Source: a virus. Taken from it: a DNA stretch of 30,144 nt. Position numbers and translations under genes: made by a program. The notes under the pieces are model-generated. The model saw only the letters and a list, made by a program, of their open reading frames with translations, did not search any database and had not been told where the DNA came from. Of the stretch, positions 6,781-29,130 are shown piece by piece. The stretch spans positions 1-30,144 of the IMG/VR virus record IMGVR_UViG_3300030090_003857. One strand, 5' to 3'. The stretch's first letter is position 1. The number at the start of each line of letters is the position of its first letter.

Positions 6781-9700
6781 TTAAATCTCTTTTTCTAGTT
6801 CTTTAACTCTAGCTTCAAGTTCTTGTATCGACTTTAGTAATATAGGTACTAACTTACTGTAATCTACTTGTTGCATATCTTCAGCATCTTTATCACCACT
6901 AACTGCTTGTGGCACTACTTCTTGAAGTTCGTGTGCCATAACACCGTAGCTTCTCGTATCATCTGCTTTCCATTTAAAGTCATACATCTTTATCTTCGAT
7001 GCAATATCTAAAGCATTGAAGTCTTTTAAATCTTCTTTTAATCTGTAATCAGAAGAAGTGTTGTATGACGTTGCAGAATCTAAAGTTTGTATTGTTCCAA
7101 CAGTACCGTTAGGGTTTTTAAAAGAAATACAAGAAGATGAGTTTGTTCTTTCTGCCTCTATTCTTGCACCAACGTTTATAGTACCACCTGCGGCATCATT
7201 AAACTTTATGTGAAGTCTACCATCAGGGCTAGTCTGATTTATTCCAACTGTACCAACACTTGTGAAACGTAGACGTTCAGAACCCGCAGTTGAAAATGCA
7301 ATAGTATCTGCACTTCCTGATGGTTGGTACATTCCAGTATTTACGTCATTATTAAAAGTATAGCCCGGACTTCCTGCCGTTCTACCACTATTTACAAGTT
7401 GTATATATGGTGTATGACTATTTGAGCTTGTTCTAATATCACCATCACTTGTGATACGTAGACGTTCTGATGAATTATATTCATCTGTAATTGCTAAAAA
7501 ACCATTAGCACCATTAGAAGTAATACTAAAGGCATTTGTCGTGTTTTCTGTTAAATAATAACCACCTGATGTTTGTGCTTGTATTTTTTGAGAAGAGTCG
7601 ATTCTGATTGCCTCACTTCCATTGACTGAAAAAAGCATAGAATTTAGGTTATGCTTATAAGAAATAACACCAATAGTTGAACCTGCGTCTGCGGCATCAT
7701 TTGAATCAGCAAAAGTTAAATCACAAGATTTATCATCACCTGAAGTAAGTGCTAATCTTGTATGACCAGTTGTTGTACCAACTTGTAAAATATTATCATA
7801 AGCACCACTAAATGGGTTAGGTATAGATGTAGTTCCAACTCCCACATAACCTAGAAAAGTTGCATTTTGTGATGTGTCTATTTCTAAAGCGGTTGTTTCA
7901 GCGTTACTTGCATTTTTAGTTGCAAAAGTTAATTTATCATTTGAGTTATTCGCATAAATACTTGCGGCAAAATTTGGTGTTGAATCAGTCCAAGCTATTT
8001 TATTATTTACGCCTGAGCCTTGTGCTAAAGTTAAACCATAAGCAGCAGTTTTACCACCTACACCTACTTTTCCTGCAAAAGTTGCATCACTAGAACTTGA
8101 TACAGATAATGGTGTAGTAGAATTTGTGGTATCAAATATCTCAAATGCACCATTATTATTTCTTAATCTAAAATCACTATTGCTATTTGTATCTACAAAA
8201 TCTATTGAAGGTACATCTTTACTTATAGCTATATCACCTGTAAAGGTAGCATCGCCACTTGTCGATATAGTTAATCTTGTTGCACTACCAGTTTGTACTA
8301 AAAAAGCACCACTAGAGCTACCAAGAACTGCTGTACCACTACTATCAGTTAATTCTATTTGTGAATCAGCAGATGATGATGTAAACCTTGCAGAAATTTG
8401 AGTTGAATTTACTGATAAAGGTCTCGCAGGGCTAGTCGTGCCTATGCCGATATTCGATGTACTTCTGTCAATAGTTAAAACTGTAGAGGCTACGCTTGAA
8501 AATGTTTTATCTAAATGTAAATCAGCACTTGCATCTAATCTAAAGCTATAATAATTTGTAGAACCTGCACCAAAGATAAGTGTACCATCAGACATTGCTG
8601 TACTGCCACCAAGAGAACTTTTAAGTATTGAAACAGAACCTGCAAAAGTTGAAGCACTTGAAGCACCATCCATACTTAAAATCGCAGTTGTATTATATCT
8701 TAAATTCATTACAGCACCATCATTGGTTATTGCCATTGGGTGCGTATCTCTAGTATCGTTTAATATTAAGCCTACTGGGTTTGCAGAAGTAATTTCTATT
8801 TTTCTTGCAAGGCTATTATTATCTTCAAATGATGTACCACCAAAGATTGCATCACCTGCAAAAGTTGCATTGTTAGAAGCTAAAACTATAGTGTTATTTC
8901 CAGAGCCATCTCTTATAGTTACATTACCAACATTACCATCAATACCACCCATAAACATATCGCCATTGTTATCAATGCCAATCATTCTCAATGCTGTAGA
9001 ACCATTGCTATGAGTTCCTTCAAAATATTTGTTATTAGCTACTCTTGCACTATCATTAAATATTCCTTTACCTGCAAACGTAGCACCTGATGAATTTAAT
9101 TTTAATTGATTGACTTCTGAATTATTTACAAGGGTAGTAAGCAATAATTGACCATCCTCTGCACCTGCTGTACTATCTTCTATTTGACCAAATATACTTG
9201 CATATCTTGTATTATTACCTGAAGCGTCATTGCCATCAAAATTAATAAATGAAAATGTGTTTCCATTACCATTATCATCTGAACGTAGAGTTAATCCTGC
9301 ATCACCAGTACCATCATTTTCAAATAATATTTCATTTGAACTAGAAGAATCTGCAAAAACGTGAAGCAAACTAGATGGACTAGTTGTTGAAATTCCTACC
9401 GAACCTCCAGCAGTTATTGTAACTGCATTATTAAGTTTCATATCTAAAAAGCTAGATGTTCCTCTGTTATATCCTTGTGCAAAAACTACACCTCCACCAG
9501 CAGAATAACCAGCTTCAAAACCTTGATTTGCATCATCACCTACTCTAAAATCTCCACCTTGTACATCTAATTTCATCCCAGTTGTTATAGATGCCGTACC
9601 AATACCTACGTTAGTATCAAATCTTATAGCACCTGCACTATCATTATCAGAAAACCTTAAATCTGCACCACTACCATAAATATCCCATTTACCAGTACCA

Positions 9701-10878
9701 CTACTTGCATATAATCTTACATAATCGCCACTAGATGAACTTGTTGATATAAACTTTTTAGAAGTTGCAGTAACATCACCTGCAAACGTTGCATTTTGTG
9801 ATGAATCAAGTGTAAGTGCAGTTGTCGAACCAGTTGTGAAACCTAAACTATCGGCACCTACTCGATACATACCAGTATTATCATCACCATAGAAAGTGAA
9901 ATCAGGCGCACCTGCATTACCATTATTACTTGCGCCTATTTGACCATTAACTGATAATTGTACTGCTGAATCAGGTACAAGACCAACACCCAATAAACCT
10001 TGAATTTGAATGTTACCACTTGATTCACTTATGACAGAATCAGTAATCGTATCTGTGTCAGACCACTTTACAATCTTACCCGCAGTCCCGCTACCATCCA
10101 CAGCACCTGCACCAATAGGTATCTCGACAACTTGACCAGAAGATGTTACACCTAATCTTTGTGTTACTGTGCCAGTAATACTGCCACTACCATATTGATG
10201 TAATCTTACTCCTGTTGTCTGTGCAAAAGTAAATTGTGTTGAACCACCAACACCAAGCTGTATGTTATCAGCAGATGTAGTTCCTGCAATATAAACATCA
10301 CTTGTATTGCCCCATAAAAGCTTATTAGAATTATCAAGAAGAATATCTCCACCTGATATTGTTAATTTAGAAGATGGACTTGTAGTGTTTATACCTACAT
10401 TTTTTGAAGATTCTTTGGCAAATAAAATAGTATTACCGCCATCATCTGTTATATTTATTCCTGCATTACTAGCACCTGTTTCATAACTCTTTAAGAATAA
10501 AATACCAGTACTATCATCAAAACCTATTTGGCCGCCATCTGATGTGGCATTACCTGTGTTGTTAGTTTTAAATCTTAAATCAACTGATGTGTTAGAACCA
10601 CCATCTAAGGTTAATGTAGAACCACTCGTTGCTACGCCATTGGAACCACCGATTAATAATTGGTCCTTAACCCAAGTGTCATTTTCAACTGTTAAACTAA
10701 AAGAAGTATTTGGCGTAACACCTATACCTAGACCTCCTGTAGATAAGTATAATGGAGAATCAGTTCCACCACCATCAGTAAGTCTTTTACCACTCGAGCC
10801 AATAATTGCATTATCAGTTGTTTTTAAAAGTCCTAAATACGAGGATGCTATAGTATTACCAGTAAGTGATGTACCCAT
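6781..10878 (-). CDS. Tail fibre with S74 intramolecular chaperone
   Basis: Long (1365 aa) host-recognition fibre. The N-terminus (GTSLTGNTIASSYLGLLK) resembles the attachment module of many marine phage fibres. The middle is a Gly/Ser/Thr/Asn-rich beta repeat region with seven TFAG-type units and several VGIxTTSP units, expected to form a trimeric beta-shaft. Two NTGMY segments resemble each other. The C-terminus is a Peptidase_S74 / endosialidase chaperone domain: SSDYRLKEDL gives Ser1276 and Lys1281, the spacing of the known Ser-Lys dyad that cuts the chaperone off after trimerisation. It is followed by MYDFKWK, YGVMAHELQEVVP and a C-terminal coiled coil (about 1336-1365). A TATATTTG box lies 16 bases upstream. 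Receptor unknown. Confidence 0.92.
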   Translation of the reverse strand: MGTSLTGNTIASSYLGLLKTTDNAIIGSSGKRLTDGGGTDSPLYLSTGGLGIGVTPNTSFSLTVENDTWVKDQLLIGGSNGVATSGSTLTLDGGSNTSVDLRFKTNNTGNATSDGGQIGFDDSTGILFLKSYETGASNAGINITDDGGNTILFAKESSKNVGINTTSPSSKLTISGGDILLDNSNKLLWGNTSDVYIAGTTSADNIQLGVGGSTQFTFAQTTGVRLHQYGSGSITGTVTQRLGVTSSGQVVEIPIGAGAVDGSGTAGKIVKWSDTDTITDSVISESSGNIQIQGLLGVGLVPDSAVQLSVNGQIGASNNGNAGAPDFTFYGDDNTGMYRVGADSLGFTTGSTTALTLDSSQNATFAGDVTATSKKFISTSSSSGDYVRLYASSGTGKWDIYGSGADLRFSDNDSAGAIRFDTNVGIGTASITTGMKLDVQGGDFRVGDDANQGFEAGYSAGGGVVFAQGYNRGTSSFLDMKLNNAVTITAGGSVGISTTSPSSLLHVFADSSSSNEILFENDGTGDAGLTLRSDDNGNGNTFSFINFDGNDASGNNTRYASIFGQIEDSTAGAEDGQLLLTTLVNNSEVNQLKLNSSGATFAGKGIFNDSARVANNKYFEGTHSNGSTALRMIGIDNNGDMFMGGIDGNVGNVTIRDGSGNNTIVLASNNATFAGDAIFGGTSFEDNNSLARKIEITSANPVGLILNDTRDTHPMAITNDGAVMNLRYNTTAILSMDGASSASTFAGSVSILKSSLGGSTAMSDGTLIFGAGSTNYYSFRLDASADLHLDKTFSSVASTVLTIDRSTSNIGIGTTSPARPLSVNSTQISARFTSSSADSQIELTDSSGTAVLGSSSGAFLVQTGSATRLTISTSGDATFTGDIAISKDVPSIDFVDTNSNSDFRLRNNNGAFEIFDTTNSTTPLSVSSSSDATFAGKVGVGGKTAAYGLTLAQGSGVNNKIAWTDSTPNFAASIYANNSNDKLTFATKNASNAETTALEIDTSQNATFLGYVGVGTTSIPNPFSGAYDNILQVGTTTGHTRLALTSGDDKSCDLTFADSNDAADAGSTIGVISYKHNLNSMLFSVNGSEAIRIDSSQKIQAQTSGGYYLTENTTNAFSITSNGANGFLAITDEYNSSERLRITSDGDIRTSSNSHTPYIQLVNSGRTAGSPGYTFNNDVNTGMYQPSGSADTIAFSTAGSERLRFTSVGTVGINQTSPDGRLHIKFNDAAGGTINVGARIEAERTNSSSCISFKNPNGTVGTIQTLDSATSYNTSSDYRLKEDLKDFNALDIASKIKMYDFKWKADDTRSYGVMAHELQEVVPQAVSGDKDAEDMQQVDYSKLVPILLKSIQELEARVKELEKEI
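7841..9805 (-). repeat. Seven TFAG-type protein repeats in the fibre shaft
   Basis: Within the fibre gene seven degenerate units of the form (D/N)ATF(A/T/L)G recur, each at the end of a Ser/Gly/Asn-rich block. At DNA level the plus strand shows related words such as CTGCAAAAGTTGCAT. They alternate with VGIGTTSP-like units. The pattern fits repeated beta-strand turns and probably grew by duplication; spacing is irregular, so this is not a tandem satellite. Confidence 0.75.
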
Positions 10879-10902: not shown

Positions 10903-11328
10903 CTATTTTTTCATTTTCATTATATGCTTGTTGTGATGCTCTCTGTGACAGTTAGCACACAAGACTTCACACTTTGCCATTATCTCTGTAAGTATAGCAT
11001 CAACTTTACCATCATGAAAACTTTTTTTAGATAAATTTCTAATTGCCCTTGCAATAGCAAATTTTTTTCTTTTTGTATGATGGAAGTCTAATGCACTAAA
11101 ATTTTTATCATAACCACATCTTACACATTTAATATCTATATACGTAGAAAGTTTATAAATAAATTCTTGTTTCCAATGCCTATGATTTTTTTCTCTTTGT
11201 TTATTTCTACAATCTCTGCAATGTATCTCTGCTTTTTTATTTGACCTTTTATAATATCTAGATAAAGGTTTTATCTTTTTACATGTTGCACAAATTTTAC
11301 CTTCCTTGTCCCCTGTATTTTCTGCCAC
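10903..11328 (-). CDS. HNH endonuclease
   Basis: The 141-aa protein has an N-terminal zinc-ribbon-like pair CATC (about 13-16) and CRDC (about 38-41). It then has a CVRCG knuckle, the H of LDFHHTKRK and a terminal LCANCHREHHNKH, which give the His and Asn/His metal site of HNH nucleases. Such genes are often free-standing homing endonucleases in phages; some HNH proteins assist terminase, but here it sits far from terL, between the lysis genes and the fibre. The start is GTG (with AAAGGAAA upstream) and overlaps the 46-aa gene by 32 bases. The next ATG lies after the zinc pair, so GTG is kept. Confidence 0.85.
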   Translation of the reverse strand: MAENTGDKEGKICATCKKIKPLSRYYKRSNKKAEIHCRDCRNKQREKNHRHWKQEFIYKLSTYIDIKCVRCGYDKNFSALDFHHTKRKKFAIARAIRNLSKKSFHDGKVDAILTEIMAKCEVLCANCHREHHNKHIMKMKK

Positions 11329-20541: not shown

Positions 20542-21711
20542 TTAATACACAAAAAATTCAGTCTTGTTGCTGTATCTTGTATAGATACCATAACGTAAAG
20601 CATCCATCGTGTGATTGTATTTATCTCTCGGTTTATTTGTTTTAGTTCCGTCTTTTAACTCTTCCCAAATATAAAATTGATATTCGTGTTTTATATTTTT
20701 AGAACAATTAGAAACAAATATATCAAATTCTTTTATCAGAGAAATACCAGCACTTACACTTCCTTGCCCTTTTATACTTGGTTTTGCTAATATTCCTGAT
20801 TGTCTTAGTTCATCTATTGACTTTGGTTCTGCTGAATCACAATAAAAAATACAATCTTGATAATTATTTTTTTTAATAAAATCTGCAATGTCTTGATTTG
20901 TCATACCAGTTTTATAACATACTTCCTTAATATATATTTTATTATTTATTTTTCTTATTTCAACAATAGCTGTAGGGTCATTAGAATAACCCCAATCTAA
21001 ACCCATAAATATATCATCATTGTCAGGAAATTCAGAATAATCAATAAACGACCAATTATTAAAAATCATACCTTCAGAAAATGTTGCTTTTTCACCAAGA
21101 CCATAAACACGCCAATATTGTTCATCTCTGTTTTTTAGTCTTTCTATTTCATCAATGATTTCTTTTTCTAGAAATGCATTGTCTTTATATGTTGAAATAA
21201 ATGTTTCTGCATCTTCTCTCTCCATAAGTTCGTCATAAATCCAATGTATAGGGTCAGACGGATTGAAATCAAGTATAACCTCTCCTGTCGTTCTCATTAT
21301 GAGCTGTCTAAAATCTTCGTATGTTAATTCATTTGCTTCGTTAATAAATAATATATTTCTTTTTCTACCTCTAATTTTTTGCGGTTCATCAACACTTATA
21401 AACTCGACCTTATGCTGTTGGAAATAATAAATCATTTCACTTTTATTCAGATAACCATTATAAAGAATACCTACACTTTCAAGTATACCCATAAAATCTC
21501 TAAATACAGATGCTCTAACTGCAGGTAATGTCTTTCTTGCTATTGTTATTGTTTGTGGTTTCTTCATGTCTAACATTAAGTGTATGAGATACTGACAAAT
21601 TGCATACGTCTTACCTGACCTTGTACCTCCTTGAAATATTTTAATTCTTTTTTTGCTGTTAAGACATTGATAGAATTGTACGTTACATTCTATTTTTTTG
21701 ACGGTTGCCAT
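20542..21711 (-). CDS. terL: Terminase large subunit
   Basis: Packaging ATPase-nuclease of 389 aa. The Walker A box is GGTRSGKT (28-35), followed by an adenine-binding-type ITIARKT strand; Walker B is ILFINEA (about 120-126, catalytic Glu125). The RNase H-like nuclease has acidic residues D239 (GLDWGYSNDP), D292 (YCDSAEP) and D370 (HTMDALRYG). Short for the family but all motifs are present. It overlaps terS by 22 bases and is followed by the portal after 40 bases. TerL drives DNA into the prohead and cuts concatemers. Confidence 0.95.
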   Translation of the reverse strand: MATVKKIECNVQFYQCLNSKKRIKIFQGGTRSGKTYAICQYLIHLMLDMKKPQTITIARKTLPAVRASVFRDFMGILESVGILYNGYLNKSEMIYYFQQHKVEFISVDEPQKIRGRKRNILFINEANELTYEDFRQLIMRTTGEVILDFNPSDPIHWIYDELMEREDAETFISTYKDNAFLEKEIIDEIERLKNRDEQYWRVYGLGEKATFSEGMIFNNWSFIDYSEFPDNDDIFMGLDWGYSNDPTAIVEIRKINNKIYIKEVCYKTGMTNQDIADFIKKNNYQDCIFYCDSAEPKSIDELRQSGILAKPSIKGQGSVSAGISLIKEFDIFVSNCSKNIKHEYQFYIWEELKDGTKTNKPRDKYNHTMDALRYGIYTRYSNKTEFFVY

Positions 21712-22040
21712 TGTATGATTTCAGTTTTTACATCGCCTTTATGTGATATTTCTTGCCTTTCTACATACCCTCTGTCTTTCGCTTTTGTCTTTAAGTAAAA
21801 TATTGTTGCTGTAGGATTACCATCTTGTATCTGTTTAAATAATTGACTTTCTGCAAAATCTTTTGCTACATTACTTAAATCATCAACTTGTTTTTTAAAT
21901 TCTTTGTCCTCTTTATAATATCTATAAAATGTAGTTCTATCTATACCTACTTGCTTACATGCAGTTGTAACCACACCAAGTGATTTTTCTAAAGATTCCA
22001 ATAATGCTTTTTTAGTATGTTGTATTTTGTTGTTTTTCAT
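21690..22040 (-). CDS. terS: Terminase small subunit
   Basis: The 116-aa protein has an N-terminal helix-turn-helix (LLESLEKSLGVVTTACKQVGIDRTTFYRYYKED, about 13-45) followed by helices and a C-terminal tail ending in DVKTEIIQWQPSKK. The pattern, with 'ATIFYLKTKAKDRGY' after the oligomerisation helices, is typical of small terminases with an HTH plus a GY.E motif. It recognises viral DNA and delivers it to TerL. The TAATTTTG at 22045-22052 lies only four bases upstream of the start. Confidence 0.9.
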   Translation of the reverse strand: MKNNKIQHTKKALLESLEKSLGVVTTACKQVGIDRTTFYRYYKEDKEFKKQVDDLSNVAKDFAESQLFKQIQDGNPTATIFYLKTKAKDRGYVERQEISHKGDVKTEIIQWQPSKK

Positions 22041-22055: not shown

Positions 22056-22913
22056 TTATTTTTTATATGTCTCCTGTATTATACGAGGAACTGTGTTGTT
22101 CCAGTTGATTCTATGGTGTAATCTTGGATGTATTGTACCAACTAATGATACCTTAACGCTAGATGGATTAAATATTAAAGTGTAAAAAGATTTTACGTAT
22201 GTACCACCATCAAGATAAAATTCTGTAAGACCACCAGTATTTTGTTGTGTTTGTAATTGATTCAATCTTAATTCACATATCGTAAGAAATAAATCGCCTT
22301 TTGAACCAAAATGTACATACGTATTTACATCTTCGTTTATTCTACCTATAAATTGAAATCTTCTTTCTGTAGAACACACAAAAAAATTCATTGCTTTTCT
22401 AGATAATTTTTTTTGAAAAACACTACACCCTGCACCACCAATAAAGTCACCATCTTGTGCAATACACAATGTTTTTGCTTTTATAGATTTATAATATTTA
22501 AGAAGTACATTGAATTGAAAATCTAAATCTTTGCATAATCTTTGTTTTGTGAGATAATTATAATTATTATCAACTGTATATCTAAAAGTCTTGTAATCGT
22601 CGTCTAAGACAATAAAATATTTATAACCCAATTCCTTTGCAATATCAAATACTGCGTTTCTAGCATAAACTACGACACGCTTATCATCAAAATTATCAGC
22701 AATGTCAAATGTATTTACATAATCATCTTTAGAAAAGACATAAACATTTTTAAATTGTTTTTTATAGTCATTTAGATTTTTATCATCATCTGAACATATT
22801 AGATATATTTCACCTGTATAACCTTGTTTTATCAGCGTTTGATAAGTGTAAACTTTGTCTGCCCTTCCATATGAAAGAATAAAAACGACATATTCTTTTT
22901 TATTCATATTCAT
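22056..22913 (-). CDS. TAGT-like glycosyltransferase
   Basis: The 285-aa protein resembles the TET-associated glycosyltransferase (TAGT) family described in phage base-modification systems. Seen: an opening beta strand with VVFILSYGRADKVYTYQTL (SYGR at 14-17), then EIYLICSDDD, a VVVYARN motif (81-86), and IVLDDDY (103-107), a DxD-like metal/sugar-nucleotide site. The C-terminal half has VHFGSKGDLFLTICELRL and GGTYVKSFYTLI. Members would glycosylate hydroxymethylated bases in DNA, but no hydroxylase or nucleotide hydroxymethylase is in this window. It overlaps the ParB-like gene by 14 bases (starts at 22913 or 22907), directly upstream of the terminases. Function is inferred from family memory and motifs. 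Confidence 0.7.
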   Translation of the reverse strand: MNMNKKEYVVFILSYGRADKVYTYQTLIKQGYTGEIYLICSDDDKNLNDYKKQFKNVYVFSKDDYVNTFDIADNFDDKRVVVYARNAVFDIAKELGYKYFIVLDDDYKTFRYTVDNNYNYLTKQRLCKDLDFQFNVLLKYYKSIKAKTLCIAQDGDFIGGAGCSVFQKKLSRKAMNFFVCSTERRFQFIGRINEDVNTYVHFGSKGDLFLTICELRLNQLQTQQNTGGLTEFYLDGGTYVKSFYTLIFNPSSVKVSLVGTIHPRLHHRINWNNTVPRIIQETYKK

Positions 22914-23643
22914 CTAAATATTTATCAAGTATTTCATTTCTTAATTGTATGTATCCAAGTTTAATTGCTTTATCAAAATCAATAATTATTAATGCACTTT
23001 CTTCCATTAATTCTTGTATTTCTTTTGATGAATGTGCATAAAAATCTGCAATTTTTGTATAATCAAAAACCATGTGCCTTGTTGCACAATCCATAAGAAA
23101 ATTTTTTTCATTTACCGTCAGATTTGTTTTTTTTATTTTATCTAATAACTGTTTGTATTTATTCTTATCAATTAGTTCTTTAATGTCAGGTTTATTATCA
23201 GATGGTTCATAAATTGGTGCATTGATTTTAGATGTATATGGTATTTCATCTCTATCAAATTCCATTTGTTCATCAATATTGACTGATGGTATTTCTAAAC
23301 CCCAGTTATCTAAACTTTGAGACAACCATTCATTTCCAAGTGAATCCCAATCCCAATCACCAAAAGAAATATTATCCTTAATGATAAATTCTTGTTTTTG
23401 TTCCTCTGTCCAATTTTGTGCAATATCTACTGTAATTTTATCAAATCCAGCCTTTTGTAATGCCTTTAATCTCATATTACCACCAAGAACAACCATATTT
23501 TCGTCAACAACCAAAGGTCTTTTATCCAACATTTCAGGAAAATCAATTATTGATTTTACCAATTTATTAAATTTTTTCTTTGATATAGTTCTTGGGTTTT
23601 GTGTGTTTGGTTTTATATCTTTTATTTTAACTTTTTTTCTCAT
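22900..23643 (-). CDS. ParB-like nuclease-domain protein
   Basis: The 247-aa protein has the ParB/Srx N-terminal fold: KIKDIKPNTQNPRTISKKKFNKL, VVDENMVVLGGNMRLKALQKAG (GGNMR at 54-58 in place of GHRR) and a following helix. Residues about 150-247 form a second helical domain (APIYEPSDNKPDIKELI..., CATRHMVFDYTKIADFYAH, LIIIDFDKAIKLGY) found with phage ParB-like proteins. Such phage proteins are often neighbours of base-modification or terminase genes. Role unknown; possible nicking, CTP/ATP-dependent DNA binding or guiding modification. Overlaps the glycosyltransferase, so the two are probably coupled. Confidence 0.75.
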   Translation of the reverse strand: MRKKVKIKDIKPNTQNPRTISKKKFNKLVKSIIDFPEMLDKRPLVVDENMVVLGGNMRLKALQKAGFDKITVDIAQNWTEEQKQEFIIKDNISFGDWDWDSLGNEWLSQSLDNWGLEIPSVNIDEQMEFDRDEIPYTSKINAPIYEPSDNKPDIKELIDKNKYKQLLDKIKKTNLTVNEKNFLMDCATRHMVFDYTKIADFYAHSSKEIQELMEESALIIIDFDKAIKLGYIQLRNEILDKYLDEYE

Positions 23644-26722: not shown

Positions 26723-27421
26723 ATGGAAGTATATATTACAGACTCATATTCTATTTTCAATAAAATTATAGGAAATAGAAGTATAGATAAAAAAAATCTA
26801 AATAGATTAAAAAAATCTATACATAAAATCGGATTACAACAACCAATTTTGGTTAATGAAAATTTATCAATAGTTGATGGCCAACATAGATTACAAGCTG
26901 TCAAGGAATTAAATATTCCTGTACAATATTTTATTTCAAACAAAACATCTGAAAATGATATTGACGAATTACAAGTTAGCAAACCATGGAATGCTTTTGA
27001 CTATTGTGACAGAAATGCTAAAAGAGGAAATCAAGATTGTATAAAAGCAATAGATATAGCAAATGAAATGAATGATGAAAGTAATAATAAGTTTAGTGTA
27101 ATAAATGCTATTACATTATTATCAGAAAGCATGTCAACTAGTATAATGCAATCATTAAAAAATGAATCTTACAAAATTAATATAGAAAGGGCAAAAAATA
27201 TTTTTAAATGTTTACAAATATTAAGCACAAATAATAGTACAAGATTTAATCCATATTCTGCAGTAAATAGTAGGGTTTTAAAAAGAGTTGATAAAGCTGT
27301 GGGAGGTTTAAACGTAAAAATAATTGAAAAAATAACAAATAAAAATTATCTAATGTGTTATAATAATCAAATGGAACAATATAATTATTTTTATGATTTA
27401 TATAAAAAATATAATAAATGA
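26723..27421 (+). CDS. ParB-like nuclease-domain protein (second copy)
   Basis: The 232-aa protein carries the ParB/Srx N-terminal domain: RSIDKKNLNRLKKSIHKIGLQQPILVNE, then IVDGQHRLQAVKELN with the classic GQHR motif (53-56). It is followed by a helical region (WNAFDYCDRNAKRGNQDCIKAID) and an end with no known domain. It differs from the first ParB-like protein, so these are not recent duplicates. In phages such proteins are DNA-binding or nicking factors; the neighbour downstream is a RecB-like exonuclease coupled by ATGA. Confidence 0.75.
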   Translation: MEVYITDSYSIFNKIIGNRSIDKKNLNRLKKSIHKIGLQQPILVNENLSIVDGQHRLQAVKELNIPVQYFISNKTSENDIDELQVSKPWNAFDYCDRNAKRGNQDCIKAIDIANEMNDESNNKFSVINAITLLSESMSTSIMQSLKNESYKINIERAKNIFKCLQILSTNNSTRFNPYSAVNSRVLKRVDKAVGGLNVKIIEKITNKNYLMCYNNQMEQYNYFYDLYKKYNK

Positions 27422-28173
27422 AAAAAATTAAAGATACAAATGACAAATACCATTCGCACAAATCAATAAGTGCGAGTGGTCTTAAAACCATATTTAAGAA
27501 GTCTGTATATCATCATCTCAATTCTACTTTTAAAATGACAGATGCAATGAATTTTGGAAGTGCAGTACACTCTGCAATTCTTGAAGATGGAACAGACATT
27601 GCAGTTATGCCTGAAATAAATCTTAGAACAAATAAAGGTAAAGAGATAAAAGAGAATTTCATAAATGAAAACAAAGGAAAGATTATAATAAAAAAAGAAG
27701 AAGAATATGCTATAAATACAATCAAATGGAATTTCAATAAACATAGTTTGGCAAAGAATCTAATACAACGATTAACAGAAACAGAGGTTTCTTATTATGG
27801 TAAAATAGATAATGTAGATGTAAGAGTAAGACCAGATGGCATAAAAGAAAATGATTACATAATTGACATCAAAACAACAGCAGATGCTAGTCCTAGATAT
27901 TTTAAAAATTCTATCTATAATTTTGCTTATCATTTACAGGCATGTTTTTATTGTGAGGCACTTGGATATGACCCTGCAAGATTTAGATTTATAGGCATAG
28001 AAAATAAACACCCATATTCCGTAGAAGTATTTGCAATGAGTGATGATATGATTGAATTTGGTAAAGATGCATGGCGTATTGCATTTGATTGTTGGAAAGA
28101 ATATTTAGAAACAAATGATACAAATGGTTTTTGGTGGAAATATTTTAATGATGATGGTAGTTTAATATTATGA
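27418..28173 (+). CDS. RecB-like PD-(D/E)XK exonuclease
   Basis: The 251-aa protein matches phage exonuclease VIII / PDDEXK_12 proteins: FGSAVHSAILE (His51), a Glu in TETEVSYYG (E123), VRPDGI (Asp140), IIDIKTTADASP (Asp150-x-Lys152) and YHLQACFYCEALG (Gln174), the RecB nuclease motif order H, E, D, DxK, YxxQ. It would resect double-stranded ends for phage recombination together with the SSB-like protein. The ParB-like stop overlaps its ATG as ATGA. A separate RecT-like annealing protein was not seen in the window. Confidence 0.85.
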   Translation: MKKIKDTNDKYHSHKSISASGLKTIFKKSVYHHLNSTFKMTDAMNFGSAVHSAILEDGTDIAVMPEINLRTNKGKEIKENFINENKGKIIIKKEEEYAINTIKWNFNKHSLAKNLIQRLTETEVSYYGKIDNVDVRVRPDGIKENDYIIDIKTTADASPRYFKNSIYNFAYHLQACFYCEALGYDPARFRFIGIENKHPYSVEVFAMSDDMIEFGKDAWRIAFDCWKEYLETNDTNGFWWKYFNDDGSLIL

Positions 28174-28415
28174 CAACAACAGAAGATTTAAGTACACATG
28201 AGAAAAGACAGTTGTTTGGTGCATATCAAACAAATAAAGCAGTTAGATTAAAGATTGATGCATTGATGCATAAATGCCAAATAATAGAATGCAATCTAGG
28301 GATTGACAGTACAGATGAAGAAAGAGAAATTGCAAAGGGACAACAGTTAGTTTATTTAAGTAAAATAAAAGAACTTGACCCATTAAAATATGATATCTTA
28401 AAAAAAGTGATATGA
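28170..28415 (+). CDS. Hypothetical 81-aa protein
   Basis: Not recognised. It is charged and helical (THEKRQLFGAYQTNKAVRLKIDALMHKCQIIECN...), without a clear motif. It is coupled by ATGA to both neighbours (exonuclease upstream, Nmad1-like downstream), so it is a genuine member of the operon. It may assist the exonuclease or bind DNA; this is context only. Confidence 0.7.
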   Translation: MTTTEDLSTHEKRQLFGAYQTNKAVRLKIDALMHKCQIIECNLGIDSTDEEREIAKGQQLVYLSKIKELDPLKYDILKKVI

Positions 28416-28738
28416 CACAAAAAGAATTTGACAAACTAGTAAAACAATTAAATGACTACAGTTTTGACATTATGCAAAATAAAAGACCTGAGTATACCAA
28501 TGAAGATGAAGATGTATTGAATAATTTTAAATCTACAGCAGAAAGACTAAATACATCAGAATTAAAAGTTTGGGCAACGTTTTTTGAAAAGCAAATACAA
28601 AGCATCTATGCACATTTGAAAAATGCAAATCTAAAAAAATCTGAACCTATACACTCTAGATTTTCCGATATTATAAACTATTGTTATTTAGGTTATGCTT
28701 TATTTATTGAAAGAGATGGTAAAAAAAAGAATAATTAA
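28412..28738 (+). CDS. Nmad1/DUF1599-like protein
   Basis: The 108-aa all-helical protein fits the pattern of 'nucleotide modification associated domain 1' (DUF1599): KRPEYTNEDEDVLNNFKSTAERL, then KVWATFFEKQIQSIYAHL and RFSDIINYCYLGYALFIERDG, i.e. N-F..A......W....K....I followed by R..D..NY..L..ALI.E. Nmad1 proteins are found with phage base-modification genes, and the glycosyltransferase of this phage makes this notable. The match is from memory of the pattern and is moderate; a MazG-like nucleotide hydrolase relative is the alternative. Confidence 0.55.
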   Translation: MTQKEFDKLVKQLNDYSFDIMQNKRPEYTNEDEDVLNNFKSTAERLNTSELKVWATFFEKQIQSIYAHLKNANLKKSEPIHSRFSDIINYCYLGYALFIERDGKKKNN

Positions 28739-28844
28739 AATAGTTGCTATTGTCTTAGTAGGTATATTATCTTTATTGTATGTCAGGAATGAAATCAAGA
28801 CGAAAGGGTCACGATTACGAGAGAGCCATACGAAAGGAATTTAG
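28716..28844 (+). CDS. Possible tiny membrane ORF, nested
   Basis: The ATG at 28716 opens a 42-aa frame reading MVKKRIIKIVAIVLVGILSLLYV followed by basic residues, a clear signal-anchor pattern. It overlaps the Nmad1-like gene by 23 bases and the resolvase-like gene by 65. The hydrophobicity and the fit across the 41-base gap are suggestive, but the large overlap argues against it. Confidence 0.3.
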   Translation: MVKKRIIKIVAIVLVGILSLLYVRNEIKTKGSRLRESHTKGI

Positions 28845-29130
28845 GGACTTTGGTTGGAAATATTGCGAGACATCGCGTTATGCGTCTAAAATGATTGATA
28901 ATGCAAAGATTGACCTTGTAGGTACACATCCTTTTGCAATACAATGTAAAGCAACAACAAACAATCCAAGTTATCACAAAATACTTGACCAAATGAGACC
29001 TAATAAACCTCAATATAAATTAATCTATCATAAAAGAAAAGGTGGTAGAGAATACGTTATAATGGAAAAAAATGACTGGCTTGAGATTCTAGAAATGTTA
29101 GTTGAAAATAAAATCTTAAAAACTTTTTAA
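28780..29130 (+). CDS. Hjc-like resolvase / small PD-(D/E)XK nuclease
   Basis: The 116-aa protein has the Holliday-junction resolvase layout: KGHDYERAIRKEFRDFGWKY (Glu14 helix), then IDLVGTHPFAIQCKATT, which holds Asp45 and the Q-x-K active-site residue (Q55, K57), and HKILDQMRPNKPQYKLIYHKR. It is typical in size for archaeal-Hjc-type and phage resolvases. It would cut branched intermediates before packaging. ATG 28789 is a possible alternative start. Promoter-like box downstream at 29172. Confidence 0.8.
   Translation: MSGMKSRRKGHDYERAIRKEFRDFGWKYCETSRYASKMIDNAKIDLVGTHPFAIQCKATTNNPSYHKILDQMRPNKPQYKLIYHKRKGGREYVIMEKNDWLEILEMLVENKILKTF

Follow-up and report, generated by a model that had tools for sequence, protein, structure and literature searches.

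The TAGT glycosyltransferase of phages T2 and T6 places a second glucose on glucosylated hmC, that is, it acts on DNA (PMC13216743; PMC13390438). Solitary TAGTs have been described as well, in 288 of the 753 phage genomes with such transferases, and their function was called undefined (PMC13216743); ParB is mentioned neither in that paper nor in PMC13390438. In T6, the TAGT gene overlaps gp42. TAGT is also present in 5 of 16 TET records, from actinophage ParB-TET cassettes. The gene order in Zemanar is ParB, TET, ADDT-like, P-loop kinase and terminase, with a 14-nt overlap between ParB and the modification enzyme, and in Streptococcus phage Javan447 a ParB-methylase is located ahead of the terminase. 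A protein matching Tet_JBP (L104:785–1759) has as its best PHROG phrog_6059, which is named queuine tRNA-ribosyltransferase and may be misannotated.

We analysed a 30,144-nt record classed as viral (the window), which is possibly a fragment. On its minus strand, the window carries a ParB-like gene (22900–23643), a TAGT gene (22056–22913), a gene for the terminase small subunit directly downstream of TAGT (TerS; 21690–22040; phrog_309, 1.8e-13) and a gene for the terminase large subunit (TerL; 20542–21711; PF03237, 5.5e-13), in this order. The ParB-like and TAGT frames overlap by 14 nt and the terminase lies 19 nt downstream of TAGT, which bears out the first-pass annotation of this DNA, where a glycosyltransferase gene was said to overlap a ParB-like gene just upstream of the terminase. 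The nearest relatives of the window TerL were found in Bacteroides phages (41%). The promoter scan around the TAGT/ParB-like pair returned 45 sites against 48.7 expected.

The glycosyltransferase and its ParB-like partner

The 285-residue product of the TAGT gene (22056–22913(-)) was assigned to the TAGT family (PF20691; E 1.1e-28, 101.1 bits against a curated cut-off of 27.5) and matched phrog_842 at 1.5e-63, so that the earlier description of this protein as TAGT-like was upheld by profile search. The three motifs listed in that description are all present, with SYGR at residues 14–17, VVYARN at residues 81–86 and LDDDY at residues 103–107. The TET/JBP association named in the TAGT family is not seen at the window locus; the Pfam definition does not demand it, and T6 is also without it. 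The AlphaFold2 model of the window TAGT (pLDDT 77.5, pTM 0.77) resembles GT-A enzymes, including SpsA, LH3 and ColGalT1, with E-values down to 6.7e-5 and modest TM-scores of ~0.4, and sequence searches gave no meaningful homologue among solved structures. We predict that the window TAGT adopts a GT-A fold with a DxD-type motif. Within the catalytic core (residues 1–225; 22239–22913(-)), delineated by conserved residues in 139 sequences, R17, D44, D70, R85, D104–D106, N193 and D195 are at least 97% conserved. The DDD stretch at residues 104–106 (22596–22604(-)), which corresponds to a DxD-type metal/nucleotide-sugar motif, is at least 99% conserved in the same set. The core is followed by a C-terminal extension (residues 226–279, GGLTEFYLDGGTYVKSFY...RLHH; 22077–22238(-)), defined by profile and conservation, in which K241, R264 and H267 are invariant across 132 sequences; on its own, the extension has a pLDDT that is low in part. 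A search for TAGT on plasmids returned no match.

The partner is a 247-residue ParB-like protein (22900–23643(-)), characterised by profiles and locus comparison. Its Pfam ParB_N score of 21.7 bits falls under the cut-off of 26.3. Its ParB-like identity is drawn from PHROG families matching at up to 2.6e-32, from a profile match at 1e-8 to solved ParB/Noc chains and from a predicted fold matching CDP/CTP-bound ParB; the alignment for structure prediction was built from viral-contig loci only. The ParB_N domain, delineated by profile and predicted fold, spans residues 1–118 and contains a GGNMRLKA motif (23290–23643(-)); comparison of the partner structure with viral models gave matches mostly to this part. 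No Pfam HTH family corresponding to the central DNA-binding domain of ParB was matched in the partner, and its C-terminal half is represented by a separate domain, which we refer to as CTD (residues 134–240; 22924–23244(-)). This helical TAGT-partner domain of ~107 residues has no Pfam match and was identified by co-occurrence and conservation, with Y136, P143, Y145, R189, A199, Y202 and D222 invariant across 130 sequences. No ParA ATPase was seen among the neighbouring genes scanned.

The divergent right arm of the window contains a second ParB-like gene (26723–27421(+); phrog_12305, 5e-25), as had been noted in the first pass, and its product combines ParB_N with weak DndB-like similarity. 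The same arm carries a DUF3799 PDDEXK-like gene (27418–28173(+)) and a frame with a weak match to the PDDEXK_15 endonucleases (28780–29130(+)). An Nmad1-like gene had also been reported there. The sole candidate, 28412–28738(+), was rejected, as its DUF1599/Nmad1 match (E = 0.05) covers 22 residues and reaches 14.4 bits against a cut-off of 25; this frame belongs to phrog_6802, annotated as unknown, and has two phage relatives only, both in huge-phage genomes. On the other strand, the 6781–10878(-) frame encodes a 1365-residue repetitive tail-fibre-like protein with what appears by eye to be an S74-type chaperone-like C-terminus, and a small Cys/His-rich frame adjoining it (10903–11328(-)) is HNH-like, also by eye.

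The pair across phages and prophages

Besides the window, we identified 86 viral loci, two of which could not be tested because their contigs begin at or inside TAGT. In all of the remaining 84, including one (L049) with a 5'-shortened TAGT frame, the partner lies directly upstream of TAGT. Among contigs from bacterial genomes, which were retrieved by TAGT alone, CTD was found at all 42 loci, which span many phyla and include a few with shortened frames. Because the partner is present at every testable viral locus and its domain at every bacterial-genome locus, the pairing is far beyond chance. CTD and TAGT are separated by a gene in 6 of the 42 bacterial-genome loci: five carry a diverged second TAGT in tandem between the ParB/CTD gene and TAGT (L144, L148, L152, L164 and L166), and one carries a methyltransferase-like gene (L155:4168–5001), judged by eye to be of the SAM-methyltransferase type. 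With CTD as the query, 28 of 50,697 phage records matched, all of them from TAGT-carrying groups. CTD also occurs without ParB_N, as a separate protein of 132–143 residues directly upstream of TAGT, in several viral contigs as well as in the Vibrio 191-kb phages, and on this basis we regard CTD as the constant partner and ParB_N as optional. The pair of Porphyromonas phage 005b is divergent, as is its CTD (3e-13). The exception is Vibrio phage 1.124.O, whose divergent TAGT (L131:4677–5840) has an additional region at its N-terminus and lacks a neighbouring ParB/CTD gene; a search of this phage for CTD gave no match.

The CTD-linked TAGTs form one clade in the tree, with support of 100/99 and a long branch. 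The C-terminal extension is present in TAGT of all 42 bacterial-genome loci, and its profile gave no significant match to the T6 and TET-linked TAGTs; CTD likewise had no significant match in TET-linked and T6 loci. TAGT distances correlate more with those of CTD than with those of ParB_N (Spearman 0.63 versus 0.43), and mean identity is 0.54 for CTD versus 0.45 for ParB_N. In Nocardia phage NTR1, the ParB is closest to TET-cassette ParBs (7e-44), yet CTD and a TAGT of the CTD-linked clade are present, a combination that would fit an exchange of ParB_N.

At least 80% of the pair is carried by 887 of 5426 complete E. coli genomes, in Rac-like prophages. In one of the E. coli records, ECCHD184, the ParB frame (L107:20001–20792) is labelled incomplete in RefSeq and is open throughout, encoding 263 residues. 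In the Rac prophage of K-12, ynaK corresponds to an 87-residue truncated ParB remnant (L106:15378–15641); ydaY comes next, and there is no CTD, TAGT or terminase. Lactobacillus phage Ld25A (L132:90–515) carries a deletion that joins ParB_N to the TAGT tail, and most of the pair has therefore been deleted. Based on these two losses, the cassette is dispensable.

Acceptor-making enzymes and the role of the module

The first-pass annotation suggested that the DNA of this phage may carry a sugar on a hydroxymethylated base, and pointed to TET/JBP or hydroxymethyltransferase genes beyond the window as its possible source. Complete module-carrying relatives were available from unrelated hosts, namely Lactobacillus phages c5 and phi jlb1, Haloarcula HHTV-2, Nocardia NTR1 and Vibrio pv27, with genomes of 32 to 191 kb. 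PF00303, the family of thymidylate synthase and the pyrimidine hydroxymethylases, had no match in c5, phi jlb1, HHTV-2, NTR1, the E. coli Rac-like record or the window, nor in another 60 viral contigs, of which many are fragments; the positive control, gp42 of T6, was detected. The only match among the complete relatives, in pv27, was rejected as a hydroxymethylase, being a thymidylate synthase (ThyA) beside dihydrofolate reductase. PF12851 (TET) was found neither in the window nor in the relatives searched and was detected in the controls Nigel and Zemanar. The T4 alpha-GT (PF11440) had no match in the window or the complete relatives and was detected in T6, and the beta-GT (PF09198) gave no match in a search run without a positive control. 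A Pfam scan of 19 c5 proteins, mostly hypothetical, showed no hydroxylase domain. As judged by these profiles, the known acceptor-making pathway is absent from the complete relatives. The earlier suggestion survives as far as a DNA-modification role is concerned, given TAGT, ParB and the terminase slot; its TET/JBP or hydroxymethylase route does not, and the genes sought beyond the window did not appear in the complete relatives. Literature on DNA modification in HHTV-2 and in L. delbrueckii phages contained nothing on the TAGT-partner module, and no nucleoside analysis of module-carrying phages was found in the literature searched.

DNA modification is the best reading of the locus because the same slot before the terminase holds ParB-TET cassettes, some with TAGT, and ParB-methylases. 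DNA is likely the shared substrate of the enzymes in this slot and the likely target of the window TAGT. With a probability of about one half, we propose a two-protein module for post-replicative DNA glycosylation, whose substrate and sugar we infer and whose acceptor would not be the classical hydroxymethyl base. TAGT, as a GT-A glycosyltransferase, would take a sugar from a nucleotide-sugar donor and may use its C-terminal extension to dock onto the partner's CTD. ParB_N, fused to CTD here and absent in some relatives, would hold or load the complex on phage DNA, a role suggested by the ParB clamps that bind CTP and by the fusions of ParB domains with DNA methyltransferases, to both of which it is homologous. 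Phage DNA would receive the sugar once replicated but not yet packaged, a late action to which gene position points, and the benefit would probably be concealment from restriction in the next host. The acceptor may be either an ordinary base used by the CTD-TAGT pair or one made by the pair itself. As a tentative and more specific proposal, CTD might replace the hydroxylase, such that CTD-TAGT sugars an unmodified base directly and ParB_N serves as an exchangeable loading clamp. Against the module as proposed, we know of no glycosyltransferase whose acceptor in DNA is an unmodified base, and the cassette is dispensable in Ld25A and K-12 Rac. Also, since genomes of this group were sequenced routinely, the DNA modification may be sparse or absent.

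A conceivable but doubtful alternative is that the base receiving the sugar from TAGT is a hydroxylated or hydroxymethylated one, and that the enzyme making it lies outside the window, is too divergent to be recognised or possibly belongs to the host. Wherever the role of a TAGT is known or predicted, in T6 and in the TET phages, the enzyme works downstream of hydroxylation, the 30-kb window record may be a fragment, and phage SAP (Krischvirus) has glucosylated cytosines without an identifiable synthase (PMC13390438). What weakens this alternative are the complete genomes of 32 to 191 kb without TET or hydroxymethylase, in searches that detected their controls, and the 19 scanned c5 proteins without a hydroxylase domain. 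We consider it unlikely that the target is a protein, such as terminase, a virion protein or the ParB partner itself, rather than DNA. The nearest solved folds do include the protein glycosyltransferases LH3 and ColGalT1, and the TAGT gene adjoins terminase. However, the neighbouring terminases vary: the TerS profile matched none in many loci, and E. coli has an unrelated, long protein as the small subunit. The module of the Vibrio 191-kb phages sits among replication genes, and the TAGT family member of described function is DNA-acting. A counter-defence or superinfection device acting on other targets, such as nucleotides or incoming DNA, would agree with a dispensable pair found in many prophages but is highly improbable, as it has no specific support and the packaging-region position indicates the phage's own DNA.

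Of the new findings on the proposed DNA-glycosylation module, three are the strongest: CTD itself, how tightly it is associated with a TAGT subclade, and that known acceptor enzymes are absent from complete genomes. For the solitary TAGTs of undefined function (PMC13216743), a partner domain and a clade are now defined, and complete phages and prophages that carry them without known acceptor-making enzymes can be listed, the prophages of the 887 E. coli genomes among them. If their DNA is sugared, there must be a hydroxylation route that is new, or a normal base must be glycosylated directly. In that case, many temperate phages that seem unmodified would carry modified DNA, with effects on restriction, CRISPR and type IV defence.

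Comparison with described systems

The solitary TAGTs of PMC13216743 are similar to the window TAGT in occurring without alpha-GT or beta-GT, and beyond that work we add the partner domain, the C-terminal extension and the absence of TET and hydroxymethylase. The beta-glucosyl-HMC-alpha-glucosyltransferase of T2/T6 shares PF20691, the same PHROG and the GT-A fold with the window TAGT, at 16% identity between the T6 and window proteins. T6 possesses gp42 and alpha-GT and has no match to CTD or the C-terminal extension, whereas the window TAGT locus is the reverse. The T-even pathway of hmC glucosylation, comprising dCMP hydroxymethylase and alpha-GT, was found neither in the window nor in the complete relatives, and the TET/JBP hypermodification cassette, with a TET oxygenase next to ParB, was likewise not found. 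The actinophage ParB-TET cassettes (Coopervirus-like) are arranged like the window locus, with a ParB-like gene first and terminase downstream, but contain a TET oxygenase; TET-linked TAGTs (244–248 residues where read) and ParBs, in contrast to those of the window, show no match to the C-terminal extension or CTD. The ParB-DNA methyltransferase fusions next to terminase feature the same kind of ParB_N (phrog_498, 1.4e-23) and occupy the same genome slot, and carry a methylase where the window carries a glycosyltransferase. Compared with the ParB partition protein, the window partner has the ParB_N fold without a matched HTH. Phage Mu Mom takes an unmodified base as its substrate and modifies phage DNA late, as a guard against restriction; the window module would follow a similar logic with an unrelated enzyme and chemistry, so the two are related by analogy only.
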